DNA from: Oceanobacillus luteolus
GTDB lineage: Bacteria > Bacillota > Bacilli > Bacillales > Amphibacillaceae
DNA length: 46,163 bases
NCBI RefSeq assembly: GCF_023715655.1
Contig: NZ_JAMBON010000030.1
Span: forward strand, 1 to 46,163
Direction of reading: 5' to 3'
The notes beneath the pieces were generated by a model. The model had not been told where the DNA came from and searched no databases. It saw only the letters and a list, made by a program, of their open reading frames with translations. The position numbers and the translations under genes are program-made. Positions within the stretch are counted from its first letter, which is position 1, and each line of letters begins with the position of its first letter. This document shows positions 396 through 31,827 of the stretch, piece by piece.

Positions 396-1307
396 ATGGT
401 GGAAAAACAATTGAGAAGTATACGAAGTTGGCTTGCGGAACGTTTACTCAGTAGGCTCAGTAATAAAAAAATCTATAGCGATGAAAAACTTTTCCGTAAG
501 CATTTCAGAGTGAAGCAAACGGAGAGAGATTATGTATTACCTCGTTTTCTGATGAAAAGGTATCGTATTGCAAAACAGCAATTTCAAGGAATGGATTGCT
601 ATATCTTTAATCATAAAAAATCATCCTCAACAAAAACGATTCTTTACCTGCACGGCGGAGCATATGTGAATCCTCCATTGGTATTCCACTGGATGTTTCT
701 CGGAAAAATAGCAAAGAAAACAGGGGCTGCCATCTATGTACCAATCTATCCTAAGGCGCCAAATCATCAGTATCAAGATTCTTTCAGCAAGGTTCTTCCA
801 TTATATAAGGAATTGTTGGCTGCTAAGACGAACAACGATATCATCCTTATGGGAGATTCTGCTGGAGGAGGATTTGCATTAGCTCTAGCTCAGCTTCTTT
901 TAGAGAAAAAACTAGCACAGCCTCAACATATTATTTTACTATCTCCTTGGCTTGATATGACGCTGAGCCATCCGGGTATTAACAAGTATGAAAAGTTGGA
1001 TCCGATGTTAGGTGTCCATGGGTTAATTCAGATTGGGAAGGTGTATGCAGGTGAGACGGATACGAGCCACTATTTACTTAGCCCAATCAATGGTAAGTTA
1101 AAAGGTTTGGGAGAACTCACTCTATTCATTGGTACGCACGAATTACTCCTTCCCGATGCCAGGAAATTAAAGAGTCTCACTGACTCACAAGGAATCAAAA
1201 TGAATTATTTTGAATACCCGAAGATGAATCATGTCTTTCCGCTTTATCCTATTCCTGAAGCGAAAGAAGCTGTTAAGAAAATAGTGGACATGTTAAATGA
1301 TGGTTAA
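396..1307 (+). CDS. alpha/beta-hydrolase, HSL-type esterase/lipase family
   Basis: The 303-aa protein has the hormone-sensitive-lipase-type alpha/beta-hydrolase layout. HGGAY at residues 86-90 forms the oxyanion hole, GDSAGG at 153-158 carries the nucleophile Ser155, GTHELLLPD around 246-254 holds the acid (Glu249 or Asp254), and His279 in MNHVF completes the triad. There is no signal peptide, so it should be a cytoplasmic carboxylesterase acting on small acyl esters; the substrate cannot be read. The ribosome site before this ATG is poor, so the true start could lie slightly downstream. The VOC-family gene follows 42 bp later on the same strand and may be co-transcribed. Confidence 0.85.
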   Translation: MVEKQLRSIRSWLAERLLSRLSNKKIYSDEKLFRKHFRVKQTERDYVLPRFLMKRYRIAKQQFQGMDCYIFNHKKSSSTKTILYLHGGAYVNPPLVFHWMFLGKIAKKTGAAIYVPIYPKAPNHQYQDSFSKVLPLYKELLAAKTNNDIILMGDSAGGGFALALAQLLLEKKLAQPQHIILLSPWLDMTLSHPGINKYEKLDPMLGVHGLIQIGKVYAGETDTSHYLLSPINGKLKGLGELTLFIGTHELLLPDARKLKSLTDSQGIKMNYFEYPKMNHVFPLYPIPEAKEAVKKIVDMLNDG

Positions 1308-4317: not shown

Positions 4318-5020
4318 ATCTTTTCTTGCGTTCGATTGTATTGTAGTATTCGTCTTCACCTCGCACGTGATTTGTTCTTGCGTTCGATTGTATTGTAGTA
4401 TTCGTCTTCACCTCGCACGTGATTTGTTCTTGCGTTTGATTGTGGTGAAGTATTTGCCATCTCGTCGTACGTGAGATGTTCTAGCGTTTGATTGTAGTAA
4501 AGTATTTGCCATCTCGTCGCACGTGAGATGTTCTTACGTTTGATTGTGGTGAAGTATTTGCCATCTCGTCGCACGTGAGCTGTTCTAGCGTTGGATTGTA
4601 GTGTCGTATTTGCCATCTCGTCGTACGTGAGCTGCTCTTGCGTTTGATTGTAGTGTAGTATTTGTCTTCTCGTCGCACGTGAGCTGTTCTTGCGTTTGAT
4701 TGTAGTGAAGTATTTGTCATCTCGTCGCACGTGAGATGTTCTTACATTTGATTGTAGTGAAGTATTTGTCTTCTCGTCGCACGTGAGCTGCTCTTGCGTT
4801 TGATTGTAGTGAAGTATTTGTCTTCTCGTCGCACGTGAGATGTTCTTACATTTGATTGTAGTGAAGTATTTGTCTTCTCGTCGCACGTGAGCTGCTCTTA
4901 CGTTTGATTGTAGTGAGTATTTGTTTTCTCGTCAGACGTGAATTGTTCTTGCGTACGATTGAACTGAATTTTGCCATCTACTTGAACGTGAGTAGCTCTC
5001 ATATTCGATTGTAGTGATTT
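4318..5020. repeat. 52-bp tandem repeat array, about 14 units
   Basis: Units end in the core CACGTG (or TACGTG/GACGTG) and contain TTTGATTGTAGTGAAGTA and TTCTCGTCG. Eleven consecutive units are exactly 52 bp, the next two are 51 and 50 bp, and the last is truncated near 5020. Units beginning at 4734 and 4838 are identical and are each followed by a near-identical partner, so a 104-bp two-unit block has been duplicated recently. The first unit starts 6 bp after the stop of the upstream phosphotransferase and the array runs almost to the next gene. There are no unique spacers, so it is not CRISPR. No strong hairpin is conserved between units. Function unknown. Confidence 0.95.
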
Positions 5021-24711: not shown

Positions 24712-24787
24712 TTTACTATCATAGGTAGTTCACAATTGGATGTCAATATATATCAGAGAAATACTTTGGAGGATGGGGGCATTTAAA

Positions 24788-25834
24788 GTGTTGGAAAAGT
24801 ATGATGTTACTATTATAGGCGGTGGCCCAGCTGGATTATTCTCATCATTTTATAGTGGCTTACGTGGATTGAAAACAAAAATAATCGAGTGTCAATCTGA
24901 ACTCGGTGGAAAAGTTTTATTATACCCAGAGAAAATGATTTGGGACGTCGGTGGACAACCCCCTATTTTGGGAGAAGCTTTTGCAAAACAAATTGTCGCA
25001 CAAGGATTAACCTTTGAACCGACAGTCTGTACGAATACAAAAGTGGAACTTATTCAAAAAGATGAAAATAACGATTTTATCATTACGACAAATGATGGGA
25101 TGAAGCATTATTCCAAGTCGATCATATTGGCCATAGGCGGAGGTATCATTGAGCCGAAGCGGTTGGATATAGCTGGTGCAGAAAAATATGAGGGGAAAAA
25201 TCTGCATTACACCGTGAAAAGCTTGAAACAATTCCATAATAAAACCGTGTTAATTTCCGGAGGCGGAGATGCTGCAATAGATTGTGCGGTAGAACTATTG
25301 GATATTGCCAAAAAAGTAATTATCGTGTATCGGAAAAAGGAATGCCGTGCACATGAGGCGCAAGTGGATAAGTTAATAAAAGGCAATGCAAAGTTCATCA
25401 TGAACACAACGATTTCTTCACTCGTTGGTAACGAGGATGATACGGCGATTAAACAAGTCGTCTTGAAAAATATATTGTCTGGAATTACTCAGAGAGTAGA
25501 GATTGATCAAGTGATTGTCCAGCATGGTTACAATCAAGATGTTTCCTTTAATGTGGCTGAGGATCTTACACTAGAAAAAAAGGATGATTATTTTTATAAA
25601 GGGGATGCTTTTGGGTGTACGACACAAGAGGGCATCTTTGCTGCAGGGGATATCCTAACATATGATGGAAAAATCAATCTGTTGGCAGGTACTTTTCAAG
25701 ATGCTGTAAACGCTGTAAATAGTGTGAAAAATTACTTGGATCCGAATGCAGCTAAAGTAGCTATGGTTTCTTCCCATAACGAGGCATTTGAGGAAAAAAA
25801 TAAAGAGATGATAGCAACGATGTTGGGGAGTTGA
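24788..25834 (+). CDS. ferredoxin/flavodoxin-NADP+ reductase, YumC/YcgT type
   Basis: The 348-aa flavoprotein has an N-terminal FAD fold with IGGGPAG (10-16), a second Rossmann fold with ISGGGDAAIDCA for NADPH, and AAGDI with a C-terminal FAD-contact segment. It resembles thioredoxin reductase but lacks the redox CxxC, which defines the Bacillus FNR group. Its start is uncertain: GTG 24788 (VLEKYDVTIIGGG) has a G-rich site upstream, while in-frame ATGs at 24740 and 24773 lack spacing. It shares a Fur box with the siderophore importer, like Fur-regulated ycgT, suggesting it supplies electrons for iron release or for iron-free flavodoxin. Confidence 0.88.
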   Translation: MLEKYDVTIIGGGPAGLFSSFYSGLRGLKTKIIECQSELGGKVLLYPEKMIWDVGGQPPILGEAFAKQIVAQGLTFEPTVCTNTKVELIQKDENNDFIITTNDGMKHYSKSIILAIGGGIIEPKRLDIAGAEKYEGKNLHYTVKSLKQFHNKTVLISGGGDAAIDCAVELLDIAKKVIIVYRKKECRAHEAQVDKLIKGNAKFIMNTTISSLVGNEDDTAIKQVVLKNILSGITQRVEIDQVIVQHGYNQDVSFNVAEDLTLEKKDDYFYKGDAFGCTTQEGIFAAGDILTYDGKINLLAGTFQDAVNAVNSVKNYLDPNAAKVAMVSSHNEAFEEKNKEMIATMLGS

Positions 25835-25924
25835 GACTGCTAATGAAGTTGAAGTGGATGAGTATGAGTCCAAAGCATAGTATGAGAATCTTGATTCATT
25901 TCGAAAATAGTGATTTTTCTTTGA

Positions 25925-26437
25925 TTCGTACATGAGAGTGCTTTTAAGAACACGAATACTCTAATATTTCTTCAGTTCATGTCCTTAGAGTGCTTCTAAG
26001 GACGTGATCTCTCTAATATTTCTTCAGTTCATGTCTTTATAGTGCAGCTAAGGACACGAATACTCTAATATTTCTTCGGTTTGTGCACTGAGATGGCAGC
26101 TAAGGACACGAACTCTCTAATATTTCTTCAGTTCATGTCCTTAGAGTGCAGCTAAGGCCACGAATACTCTAATTTTTCTTCGGTTCATGTCCTAGAGTGC
26201 TTCTAAGGACATGAATACTCTAATATTTCTTCGGTTTGTGCACTGAGATGGCTGCTAAGGCCACGAATACTCTAATATTTCTTCAGTTCATGTCCTTAGA
26301 GTGCTGCTAAGGACACGAATACTCTAATCTAATATATCTTCGGTTCATGTCCTTAGAGTGCTCCTAAGGACGCGAACTCTCTTATTTTTCTTCGTTTCGC
26401 GCACTGAGAGCACTTCTAAGGATACGAACAATCTAAT
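25925..26437. repeat. 52-bp tandem repeat array with three-unit higher-order structure, 10 units
   Basis: Each unit ends in a variant of CTCTAATATTTCTTCAG. Two unit types occur. Type A (TTCATGTCCTTAGAG...) contains GTCCTTAG and CTAAGGAC around 7 nt, so it can form a hairpin; the arms are perfect in three of six copies and have one or two changes in the others. Type B (TTTGTGCACTGAGATGG...) lacks the first arm. The order along the array is B A A B A A B A A B, a 156-bp higher-order repeat. Unit lengths are 52 bp apart from small indels. The array fills the gap between the reductase gene and a broken M50 gene. Confidence 0.95.
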
Positions 26438-26497
26438 ACCCAGAATGAGTTATGATATAGAGTAGAGAATTTTTTTGCTATCGTAGTGGGGAAAGGA

Positions 26498-26973
26498 ATG
26501 GAAATAGGCGTGCTTGAAACGATCTTCGGCTACTCGGTTGCATTTTTTATTTTTCAACCGTTAAATGTATTCATACACGAGCTTGGACATGCATTTTTTG
26601 TGAAAATTTACGGAGGGACCATACAAAAGATTGAAATCGGTATCGGTGAGCACTTATTCAGAATAGGAAAGGTGCAGATTAAAAACAATTTTTCATCATG
26701 GGACTGTGCAGATACGATATAGACTCGTCTAATCTGAATAAATTCAGATTAGCGTTTATAGCGCTTGGAGGAGTTATTTTTAATCTAATGACGATTCTTT
26801 TATTGATAGCGATAAAACTATATACGGACCATCACCACTTCCTTGATGGCTATTTCTTTGGCTTTACCGGTGTGCTCATTCTATCTGCACTAATTCCAGT
26901 TACATATCCTACTGGATACGATAGTGATGGCCGTTGGTTGATTAATATTTTAAAAGAAGACCCACACCTTTGA
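26498..26973 (+). pseudogene. M50-type membrane metalloprotease gene, frameshifted
   Basis: The first part reads to a membrane segment with the zinc site HELGH (His27, Glu28, His31) and IGIGEHLFRIGKVQIKNN, then stops at 26722. From about 26690 a different frame continues with CRYDIDSS, LAFIALGGVIFNLMTILLLI and YDSDGRW, the second metal-site Asp region of site-2-protease-like peptidases. The two parts join in a CAATTTTTC stretch, where gaining or losing one T would restore a single gene of about 158 aa. It may be a real mutation or a sequencing error at the T-run. The product would be a short integral-membrane protease. Confidence 0.75.
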
Positions 26974-26997
26974 CTATAACTGGTGTGGGTCTATTAT
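26959..26997. terminator. bidirectional terminator
   Basis: GACCCACACC (26959-26968) pairs exactly with GGTGTGGGTC (26982-26991) and lies between the convergent M50 gene and catalase gene. The M50 stop codon is in the loop. Confidence 0.75.
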
Positions 26998-27021
26998 TGT
27001 GTTCAATTGGAACTCATGTAT

Positions 27022-29103
27022 TTACTTCGTGATTCCTGTTATCCCTAAGGATCCGGGGCCGGCTCCTTTGTCACGGTTCCAGAAACGGGACTGTGCAATC
27101 GCTGTGATAAAACTTTGTTTGAAGTTTTGACTGTTTGCTGCTAATATGACGCCTTCTAAATTATCTGTTCCTTGTGGTGCGACGATTGCTTGACCTGTGG
27201 TAGCAATTCCGATCGGTTTGTATAATTTATAGGCCATGTTCACAAACTCTGTGACATTTTCTGTAAACCTTTTTTCGTTAGTGGTGTTTCCTCCGACGAC
27301 GTAAACGGAGTCAACTAAATAAGGACCAGAAGTGAGGAACGTTTTGTTTACTTTGATTTTTAATCCATTGGCTCCAGTGACGTACCCCAGCCTTTCACTA
27401 ATAATATCGTAAAAGACTTTATGCTGGTCAAAGAATTCAAGGACCTCGGTGACTTCCCGATCATTAAAACCATTGCCAATCAGTACACCAACCTTTTTCG
27501 TATAAGCGCTAGGTGGTGTATGGTATTGGCTTAGAGAAGGGTAACTTTCAGAAACCGGTACATGGCTACCTGTTGGACAAGCAACACCAATGTTATCTGC
27601 AACGGTGGATGCTAGTTCCATATCGACATTGGCTAATAAATTCACATTTTGCTGGCGCACGGATTCATCCATCACGTTACCGAGTTGATAGCTAAATGCT
27701 TCAATGGTATGCATTTTCTCAATAGACGTCAAGCTATTCCAAAATATCCTCGTCTGTGAAAAGTAATCATTGACCGAATCAATCCGTTTCCGTGTAGTGT
27801 GACCACCAACTTCTTTTGGATAATGTTCATAGCCACCTTCTTCAACAGGCACTTCATGCGGGGTGTTATCCGCTAAGGAATTCGGATGGTAGTTCACATG
27901 ATCGACATCGATTAGATAACGCATCGGTCCACGTCTTTGGTTATTATGAAACGGACAAACCGGTTTATTAATCGGCAATTGTTGGAAGTTAGGCCCAATC
28001 CGATAGAGTTGTGCACTGTGGTAAGCGACTAACCTGCCCTGCAATACGGGATCATTAGAAAAATCAATCCCAGGAACAACGTTGGCAGGATTAAATGCGA
28101 CTTGTTCGGATTCCGTATGGTAATTTTCGATGTTGCGGTTTAGCGTCATCTTACCGATAATCTGTACTGGAATCAGTTCTTCTGGCCAAAACTTGGTTGG
28201 GTCAAGAATGTCAACATCATATTTCTCTTCATCTTCAACTGGGATAAGTTGAACTCCTAATTCGTATTCTGGATAGGCACCACGATCGATGGCATCTCGT
28301 AAATCTTTTCGATGAAAGTCAGGATCAATTCCACCAATTTTAATCGCCTCTTCCTGAAGTAACGATTCCACACCGAGAACAGGTTTCCAGACAAATCTTA
28401 CATAAGTTGCTTTGCCCTGTTCATTCACAAAGGTATACGTATTAATCGACCATGATTCCATATGTCGGTAACTTCGTAAAACCCCTCGGTCTGACATAAT
28501 CCAAGTGACCATATGAACCGCTTCAGGATTATTCGCAACATAATCCCAAAATCTGTCGTGGGCACCCGTAGCTGTAGGGACATCATCATCCTGTTTTGAT
28601 TGATATGCATGCATCGCATCTGGGAATTTCATGGCGTCAAAGTTAATGAGTACAGGCATCGCAATGGTTGTTAAATCATAATTTCCTTCTTCTGTGTATA
28701 ACTTAACCCCTTGACAACGTAAATCTCTCGCTGTGTCATAAGAACCTTTAGGTCCTTGAACGGTTGAAAATCGAATCGTTAGCGGCGTCTTTTTCCCAGC
28801 TTCGCCTAGGATATTTGCTCTTGTCACGTCCTTCATGGATTTGTAACATTCAAATTCACCATGTGCACTGTAACCACGGGCATGGACCACACGTTCAGGT
28901 TGCTCTTCATGGACAAAGTGAGTGATTTTTTCAAAGTACTGCCAATCCTCATGTAGCGTCGGTCCACGTTCACCTGCTTTTAATAATTCCCTGTTATTTG
29001 CAATCGTCCTGCCTTGATTGGTAGTTAATGGTTTGTCGGTGTGCTGAACACGATGATCATCTAATTGCTGTTGCTTCTTGTCTTTACCAGGATGATTCTC
29101 CAA
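27022..29103 (-). CDS. large-subunit catalase (clade 2, KatE/HPII-like) with altered haem-pocket motifs
   Basis: The 693-aa protein has the large catalase layout: a haem domain to about 480 and a C-terminal flavodoxin/DJ-1-like domain from about 530 (KKVGVLIGNGF onward). Distal His74 (VVHARG), the haem-ligand Tyr361 and PVCPFHNNQR are present. However, where catalases have DLVGNNxPVFF, this reads DLTTIAMPVLI (143-153), so both distal Asn are gone. The proximal RLFSYxDTQ reads RLVAYHSAQ. The protein may be a slow catalase, a peroxidase or another haem enzyme. GGGAGG precedes the ATG. It is monocistronic. The fold is sure, the activity is not. Confidence 0.8.
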   Translation of the reverse strand: MENHPGKDKKQQQLDDHRVQHTDKPLTTNQGRTIANNRELLKAGERGPTLHEDWQYFEKITHFVHEEQPERVVHARGYSAHGEFECYKSMKDVTRANILGEAGKKTPLTIRFSTVQGPKGSYDTARDLRCQGVKLYTEEGNYDLTTIAMPVLINFDAMKFPDAMHAYQSKQDDDVPTATGAHDRFWDYVANNPEAVHMVTWIMSDRGVLRSYRHMESWSINTYTFVNEQGKATYVRFVWKPVLGVESLLQEEAIKIGGIDPDFHRKDLRDAIDRGAYPEYELGVQLIPVEDEEKYDVDILDPTKFWPEELIPVQIIGKMTLNRNIENYHTESEQVAFNPANVVPGIDFSNDPVLQGRLVAYHSAQLYRIGPNFQQLPINKPVCPFHNNQRRGPMRYLIDVDHVNYHPNSLADNTPHEVPVEEGGYEHYPKEVGGHTTRKRIDSVNDYFSQTRIFWNSLTSIEKMHTIEAFSYQLGNVMDESVRQQNVNLLANVDMELASTVADNIGVACPTGSHVPVSESYPSLSQYHTPPSAYTKKVGVLIGNGFNDREVTEVLEFFDQHKVFYDIISERLGYVTGANGLKIKVNKTFLTSGPYLVDSVYVVGGNTTNEKRFTENVTEFVNMAYKLYKPIGIATTGQAIVAPQGTDNLEGVILAANSQNFKQSFITAIAQSRFWNRDKGAGPGSLGITGITK

Positions 29104-31183: not shown

Positions 31184-31213
31184 AAAAACTCTCCATTGAT
31201 GTGGAGAGTTTTT
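31184..31213 (+). terminator. intrinsic terminator of the DUF2339 gene
   Basis: AAAAACTCTCC pairs exactly with GGAGAGTTTTT around an 8-nt loop. Confidence 0.92.
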
Positions 31214-31287
31214 CATTTTTTATGGTCTTCGAAAACCCTCGGCTACGCCGGGGGTTCCGTAGAGCTTCTAGCGTGGGGTCAAAAAAG

Positions 31288-31349
31288 GCCTCCTTCATGG
31301 TAAAATATGGTTGGTTTCCCGACCACCAGATCTCACCAAAGAAGGAGGC
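31288..31349 (+). promoter_or_regulatory. ribosome-site-sequestering stem in the tnpA leader
   Basis: GCCTCCTTC (31288-31296) pairs exactly with GAAGGAGGC (31341-31349), which contains the tnpA ribosome site. The stem would keep transposase translation low, as described for Salmonella IS200. Confidence 0.75.
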
Positions 31350-31356
31350 GCGTCCC

Positions 31357-31827
31357 ATGCAGGACAAGAATAGTTTAGCACATACGCAGTGGAGATGTAA
31401 GTATCACATTGTTTTTGCACCAAAATACAGGAGACAAATTATCTACGGTAAGTATAAAAGAAGTATCGGACAAATTATAAGAGAGCTCTGTGAAAGGAAG
31501 GGGGTTGAGATACACGAGGCAAATGCATGTAAAGACCATATTCATATGCTGGTAAGTATTCCACCTAAATTAAGTGTGTCTCAATTCATGGGTTATCTAA
31601 AAGGAAAAAGTAGTTTAATGATTTTTGATCGTCACGCGAATTTAAAGTATAGATATGGTAACCGCAAATTCTGGTGTCGAGGTTACTTTGTAGATACAGT
31701 GGGCCGAAATAAAAATCAAATTCAAGAGTATATAAGAAATCAGCTTAAAGATGACTATATGAGCGATCAATTAACGTTATTTGAGGAATTTGATCCATTT
31801 ACAGGAGAGAAAAATCAAAAAAGATAA
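31357..31827 (+). CDS. tnpA: IS200-type transposase TnpA (HUH Y1)
   Basis: From ATG 31357, behind GGAGG, the product is 156 aa, a normal IS200 TnpA length. It has the HUH metal site HIH (61-63) and the catalytic Tyr125 in QIQEYIRNQ. The N-terminal WRCKYHIVFAPKYRR and the GYLKGKSS segment are family-typical. All catalytic residues are present, so the enzyme may be active. A longer in-frame reading to 31201 crosses the leader hairpin and is not used. Confidence 0.95.
   Translation: MQDKNSLAHTQWRCKYHIVFAPKYRRQIIYGKYKRSIGQIIRELCERKGVEIHEANACKDHIHMLVSIPPKLSVSQFMGYLKGKSSLMIFDRHANLKYRYGNRKFWCRGYFVDTVGRNKNQIQEYIRNQLKDDYMSDQLTLFEEFDPFTGEKNQKR

Follow-up and report, generated by a model that had tools for sequence, protein, structure and literature searches.

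Dispersed 52-bp tandem arrays with a two-armed core in Oceanobacillus luteolus: possible phased binding sites kept uniform by repeat turnover

Does the regular order of units in a tandem array reflect a function that depends on this order, or the way in which such arrays grow? The question is raised by an array of ten units (25925..26437) in the genome of Oceanobacillus luteolus, within a stretch of 46,163 nucleotides (contig NZ_JAMBON010000030.1) that was analysed as a whole and is called the window here. The initial annotation had read the units in the order B A A B A A B A A B, with A units carrying two hairpin arms and B units lacking the first of them, and had proposed either growth by copying of three-unit blocks or a function that needs the spacing, for example protein binding or a structured RNA.

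The array follows an oxidoreductase gene on the plus strand (24740-25834) that was recognised by a domain match to Pyr_redox_2 and whose product we take to be a ferredoxin--NADP reductase. Downstream of the array, a broken frame on the plus strand begins at 26498 like an M50 peptidase. This frame (26498-26973) contains the motif HELGHAFF and gives weak M50 matches just under the curated cut-offs, but it is interrupted, its start and its later part lying in different frames, and a comparison with 109 loci, each surrounding a relative of the upstream gene, gave no match to it at E 1e-4. Further along the window, an IS200-like transposase is encoded at 31201-31827 (Y1_Tnp, 140 bits), and the genome has six equal-scoring copies of it.

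Tandem Repeats Finder calls the array at 25935-26438 with a period of 52 and 9.6 copies, and a second time with a period of 155 and 3.1 copies. Together with the unit starts (25925, 25976, 26028, 26080, 26132, 26184, 26235, 26287, 26344 and 26396), the first call bears out the ten units of about 52 bp. Each unit, listed here without a strand, consists of a two-armed core of 33 bp and a linker of 19 bp, and the core is made up of a left arm of 14, a loop of 5 and a right arm of 14 bp; in units 0 and 5 it measures 32 bp. Three of the six A units have both A arms, GTCCTTAG and CTAAGGAC, in their perfect form, as had been noticed: unit 1 (core 25976..26008), unit 7 (26287..26319), whose linker has a 5-bp insertion, and unit 8 (26344..26376). 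The other three are nearly so, with two substitutions in the left arm of unit 2 (26028..26060), one substitution in the right arm of unit 4 (26132..26164) and a one-base deletion in the left arm of unit 5 (26184..26215).

The B units do not lack a first arm, since their left arm is another version of the same half-site. It is identical in units 3 (26080..26112) and 6 (26235..26267), reading TTTGTGCACTGAGATGGC, and unit 3 joins this B left half-site, TTTGTGCACTGAGA, to an A-type right half-site. Unit 9 (26396..26428) has a divergent left half-site of the B type, TTCGCGCACTGAGAGCAC, and unit 0 (25925..25956) has a B-like degenerate left arm, TTCGTACATGAGAGTGC, and a right half-site at 25943-25956. 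With CA at positions 7-8 and CTGA for CTTA, the B arm falls inside the range of half-sites found in this genome. The sequence TTCRTGCACTGA (CA to TA twice, CG once) is the left arm in all six listed units of the array at C119:10261 and in all three listed units of that at C165:11145, so that two further arrays are filled with the half-site variant called "B" here.

The B-A-A order can be recognised, with B-type left arms in units 3, 6 and 9 and the degenerate one in unit 0, but it is less special than had been claimed. A strict super-repeat of 156 bp does not exist: the B-to-B distances are 155, 155 and 161 bp, because of one-base losses and the insertion in unit 7. Identity between left arms is 0.654 at lag 1, 0.618 at lag 2 and 0.948 at lag 3, and without left arm and loop the corresponding values for the rest of the unit are 0.858, 0.873 and 0.843. 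When the order of units was shuffled 5,000 times (nine full units, which excludes the first left arm and the last right arm of the array), the observed three-unit score of the whole unit was equalled or exceeded in 138 shuffles; once left arm and loop were removed, this happened in 4,687, so that a 156-bp block is not confirmed. Counted by hand and post hoc, four B units among ten would by chance fall exactly at 0, 3, 6 and 9 in 1 of 210 cases, or in 3 of 84 if the degenerate unit 0 is set aside. Copying of 156-bp blocks would put all positions into the three-unit rhythm, and since only left arm and loop follow it, block copying alone does not account for the array.

Other arrays of this genome display orders of their own. 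Two-unit orders are found at C32:35143, C129:90199 (with a higher-order period of 106 bp) and C124:48366, and three-unit orders at C149:12083, C21:218 and C54:67112, while no higher-order pattern is apparent in others. Identity over whole units is 0.873 at lag 2 versus 0.804 at lag 1 in C32:35143, 0.907 at lag 3 versus 0.835 at lag 1 in C21:218, and 0.869 versus 0.848 at the same two lags in C149:12083. The proposed copying of blocks of whole units is thus visible in some other arrays, but not at 25925-26437, where left arm and loop alone follow the rhythm. Because block sizes differ among arrays, the B-A-A order is most easily understood as something that repeat turnover produces in passing; for this particular array, arm-limited conversion or later homogenisation of the remainder must be added. 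B-A-A as a functional spacing was rejected because of the other orders in other arrays; what survives of a function that needs spacing is a constraint on the 52-bp step, which does not concern the order of the units.

How widespread is this step? The genome carries at least 25 arrays with periods of 51-53 bp, in several sequence families. The array at 25925-26437 belongs to family I, with a 33-bp core of TTCRTGYNCTTANA-N5-TNTAAGNRCAYGAA. The window contains another array, of family II (CACGTGAG...TTGCGTTTGATTG), at 4323..4968 (52 bp, 12.4 copies, no strand assigned), and six other places in the genome give seven further matches to family II. Among 27 stretches of 20 kb (540 kb), which were not chosen for arrays yet are a non-random sample, their contigs being mostly known from array matches, eight repeats with a period of at least 30 were called. 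Six of them lie outside reading frames and all have 51-52 bp (L158, L161, L162, L163, L183 and L184), and the two inside reading frames have 30 and 60 bp. L161 and L183 are probably the two ends of a single array split by a contig break. Additional arrays of 51-52 bp comprise two of family I (C124 and C54:33112) and five of family II.

The arrays are intergenic minisatellites in the sense of intergenic tandem arrays with units of more than 10 bp. Only one of 20 overlaps a called frame, a 176-aa frame on the opposite strand over the first array of the window, and of seven more, six lie outside called frames and one (C132) overlaps one. For 15 arrays both neighbours were called by a simple ORF rule, which gave five convergent, eight codirectional and two divergent settings. 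On contigs C21, C109, C120, C162, C165 and C186, arrays lie at or close to the contig ends; the assembly was therefore probably broken there, and the number of arrays is underestimated. C109 and C162 probably join in one array. At L322:1-192 there is a further array of period 52, with a sequence unlike the others and units that are poorly conserved (61-63% matches).

What the family I arrays share is the core. A search for TTCRTGNNCTTA-N9-TAAGNNCAYGAA with up to three mismatches found 116 cores in the genome as compared to none for the reversed control, each core being matched on both strands (100 of the 232 resulting matches are among the matches listed). A scan of the array loci with up to four mismatches gave 113 cores, C109/C162 being counted twice. 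Of 90 core-to-core steps (C109 left out), 60 measure 52 bp, 24 measure 53 bp (13 of these in one array, C129), two measure 51 bp and one 57 bp, and three are longer gaps. With 84 of the 90 steps at 52 or 53 bp, the repeated site holds a constant helical phase, 52 bp being about five turns of B-DNA. Linkers are 19-20 bp long and specific in sequence to each array; between arrays, the half-site of 12-14 bp is kept, as is the length of the linker but not its sequence.

The half-site is moreover nearly confined to arrays. Its exact form, TTCRTGYNCTTANA, occurs 100 times in the genome (all copies listed; 6 for the control), 98 times within arrays, once at an array edge (C32:35074) and once alone (C87:563); with 98 of 100 copies in arrays, it is no scattered operator. 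A search of the genome with the whole array retrieved five places, and a search with a 13-bp arm, allowing one mismatch, gave 45 forward and 11 reverse matches as compared to 4 and 3 for the control. When 18 unit consensuses from this genome were examined for symmetry, nine of them were matched in symmetry by 11 or fewer of 200 shuffles, seven of these being centred at the core, with the best centre elsewhere in C149 and C165:4970. Symmetry is not significant in the other nine, which 35 to 155 of 200 shuffles equalled. An apparent alternation of half-sites at 21 and 31 bp was dropped, because it hinges on the chosen arm ends.

The array sequences that were searched for turned up in none of the other genomes covered. 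DNA similar to the array at 25925-26437 occurs in no other of 28 genomes of the genus, among which families II and III are likewise restricted to this genome, and the exact pattern of two right half-sites is absent from 158 other genomes of the taxonomic family, though diverged forms would escape such a search. A distant-mode search of 50,697 phage and 72,556 plasmid records left the array unmatched, and a phage or plasmid origin was dropped for this reason. Of the 109 loci surrounding relatives of the upstream gene, 80 are named and 29 belong to the genus; none gave a call of a repeat with the unit of the array, but three of the 80 named ones (L078, L104 and L110) carry an array of 51-52 bp. 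In G020, the closest in the genus (75% identity), the 1.5 kb downstream of the gene contain no repeat with a period of at least 30.

The period, by contrast with the sequence, recurs. In the congener G008, a complete genome of 3,630,528 bp, the arms of the 51-52-bp arrays read GGTAACTCAT and ATGAGTGCCC; outside reading frames, 30 stretches (600 kb) yielded five arrays of 51-52 bp and two of 55-56 bp, the latter at L285:1902-2394 and L288:18300-18455. The 52-bp arrays of Evansella caseinilytica contain CGTTAACGAATAG and CTAATCGTTAACG, and the period is 52 bp in all five arrays called at the matched place, although all Evansella arrays were found via similarity to one 52-bp array and are not independent of it. 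Eight loci represent seven places there, with no array call at L311 and L316, and two loci have adjoining repeats of 42 and 56 bp. The array sequences of both genomes are unrelated to those of the window. Samples of G020 (400 kb), G014 and G027 (200 kb each) contained no 51-53-bp array and one of G025 (200 kb) contained a single one of 2.3 copies; a non-frame array of period 40 bp was seen in G020 (L203:2442-2790). The 52-bp array trait is hence patchy in the genus, and the near-emptiness of these four samples means that a conserved, genus-wide function is not needed. Among the papers listed by literature searches, none describes such arrays for Bacillaceae in its title or the opening of its abstract.

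What, then, might the arrays be? Our preferred reading, which we put forward tentatively and with a little less than even confidence, is that they are helically phased arrays of putative binding sites, kept uniform by repeat turnover. Its base is the period, the two facing half-sites, the array-specific linkers of fixed length and the near-confinement of half-sites to arrays. Since two other genomes keep the 52-bp step with different sequences, the spacing itself is suggested to matter, perhaps as a row of evenly set docking sites for a DNA-binding protein. Each core would be the binding site of a putative dimeric protein, and the 52-bp step would place neighbouring dimers on the same side of the helix, such that they could bind jointly in a filament, a bridge or the base of a loop. 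Unequal exchange or slippage would grow the arrays and keep their units uniform, and would also yield orders such as B-A-A, while the sequence of the site would drift from species to species along with its protein and the phase would be retained. Against this reading stand the nine of 18 unit consensuses without significant symmetry, as well as the two arrays of 55-56 bp in G008 and the 40-bp array in G020, which break the 52-bp rule. Furthermore, an inherited period combined with homogenisation within arrays could yield the steps and the 51-52-bp periods of this genome without any protein.

The orientation of the arrays bears on what phased binding sites would be used for. In G008, 11 matches represent ten distinct places (eight also called as tandem arrays), and all ten point with replication: the six before 1.4 Mb are on the plus strand and the four after 2.1 Mb on the minus strand, and of the sampled stretches, all 18 up to 1.72 Mb have a positive GC skew and all 12 from 1.90 Mb a negative one. 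A gene of the same strand precedes nine of the ten places, but five lie between convergent genes, so that gene direction alone does not force the orientation. In Evansella, the contig C42 (1.17 Mb) has six distinct places, which all share one direction, and the strand of the array matches the sign of the local GC skew at six of seven loci; at the seventh, that of the largest array (1005 kb, plus strand), the local skew is slightly negative and seven of eight called frames are on the minus strand.

In O. luteolus itself, array composition matches the sign of the surrounding skew in 14 of 19 cases over all families (leaving out L183, a likely double), which is too weak for use. For family II, the strand agrees with the local skew at five of six matched places, a 30-bp match on C160 being left out, or at five of seven if the C21 array is included, which was oriented by eye and disagrees; with an absolute skew above 0.05, a cut-off picked afterwards, four of four agree. 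No orientation could be fixed for family I in this genome. Because the arrays are intergenic, rarely at divergent promoters and point with replication in the congener, a use in chromosome organisation appears the likeliest. It is possible, if doubtful, that selection acts on the period of five turns and on the two-fold layout and leaves the sequence free between species, the arrays forming a phased scaffold, laid in one direction relative to replication, for a DNA-binding protein that evolves fast.

The main rival holds that the arrays are minisatellites without function, amplified and homogenised by slippage or unequal exchange, with an inherited length of 52 bp, a drifting sequence and a symmetry that aids slippage. 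Higher-order patterns of two units in some arrays and three in others, the patchy presence in the genus and the position of 19 of 20 arrays and six of seven further ones outside called reading frames agree with it. It sits less well with a half-site that is kept across arrays next to linkers kept in length alone, and with one period in three genomes of unrelated sequence. We regard it as a serious possibility, albeit on the unlikely side.

A structured RNA, with the array being transcribed and its hairpins acting in a 3′ untranslated region in stability, termination or processing, is improbable. The stretch does fold beyond chance as RNA (z -7.0 on the plus strand), and five convergent, eight codirectional and two divergent settings, together with nine of ten G008 places following a same-strand gene, would suit such a role. 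However, the minus strand folds as well (z -6.9), which leaves no strand preference, and arrays of inverted repeats fold well on both strands. Covariation would be expected of a selected stem, but not necessarily of a recognition site that is present twice. The arms were compared in 100 units from the 14 arrays that have two or more (leaving out C109, two isolated cores and any unit with over three mismatches). They pair at 145 of 196 consensus positions as compared to 150.2 expected from redistributing the right arms over the arrays (probability of a value as high as that observed or higher, 0.96), and at positions 7-8 at 9 of 28 as compared to 12.0. Given this absence of covariation, the arms seem to be one DNA half-site present in two independent copies, and not an RNA stem under selection; selection for hairpins was dropped as the main reading, and protein binding fits better than RNA. 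Within arrays, matched arms pair marginally better than shuffled ones (1031 versus 1024.2, P 0.08), and there may be a weak structural constraint at this level.

Nor do the strands point to transcription. Eight arrays lie between codirectional genes; the strand that folds better is the gene strand in two of them (the first array of the window and C129) and the opposite one at C127:8110, and in five, 25925-26437 among them, the strands fold with little difference. A bias in G-U pairs is strong in some arrays (48 versus 4 in the first array of the window, 38 versus 3 in C32:35143), but as a sign of transcription it was discarded, because it does not follow gene direction consistently and base skew confounds it. 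No terminator-like site was found at 25700-27100, and Rfam gave no match in the whole window at gathering score.

An element of the REP/BIME kind, spread by a REP-associated tyrosine transposase, is very unlikely: the units are two-fold, intergenic, dispersed and in arrays, and one single-copy Y1_Tnp protein exists (C153:15775, 52.5 bits versus 141.7 for the six IS200-like copies), but only one of 100 half-sites is clearly solitary, and unit orientation does not alternate, all 19 stacked arrays running head to tail. The candidate gene (L317, G000:C153:15000-17000, 575-1138, minus strand) differs in kind from the IS200-like copies. Its contig contains no half-site and the 2 kb around it no such repeat, which makes a role of this candidate unlikely. 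From its translation we presume that it resembles REP-associated transposases and that its neighbour is a ComM/Mg-chelatase-like frame. A CRISPR array was dismissed because the linkers are nearly alike within each of the 19 stacked arrays, with no unique spacers.

The phased arrays proposed here resemble several known systems in part. Like the palindromic-unit arrays of enterobacteria (BIME/REP), they are dispersed, intergenic clusters of imperfect palindromes, but they keep one orientation, a fixed 52-bp step and array-specific linkers, and solitary half-sites are almost absent. MIRU and other mycobacterial intergenic minisatellites are also dispersed intergenic tandem arrays with units of about 50 bp; the present ones differ in their two-fold core, their many sequence families and one period across genera. 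Pneumococcal BOX elements are likewise modular, dispersed and foldable, with a repeatable middle module, whereas the arrays here have uniform 52-bp units and no end modules were seen. In operator or centromere arrays (iterons, parS/parC-type), tandem sites at helical multiples are bound cooperatively, as is proposed here; unlike these, the arrays described here occupy at least 25 chromosomal loci, and their binding protein is putative.

The reading as phased binding sites predicts a protein and a sensitivity to half-turn spacers, and the rival of an inherited geometry predicts neither. Tandem arrays are usually recognised by their sequence, and a kinship by spacing, as in these three genomes, would escape the usual searches. 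Through their polarity in the congener G008, a connection of the arrays with chromosome replication or segregation becomes open to test. If the phase is selected, the arrays would be a ready probe for a nucleoid protein in these bacteria.
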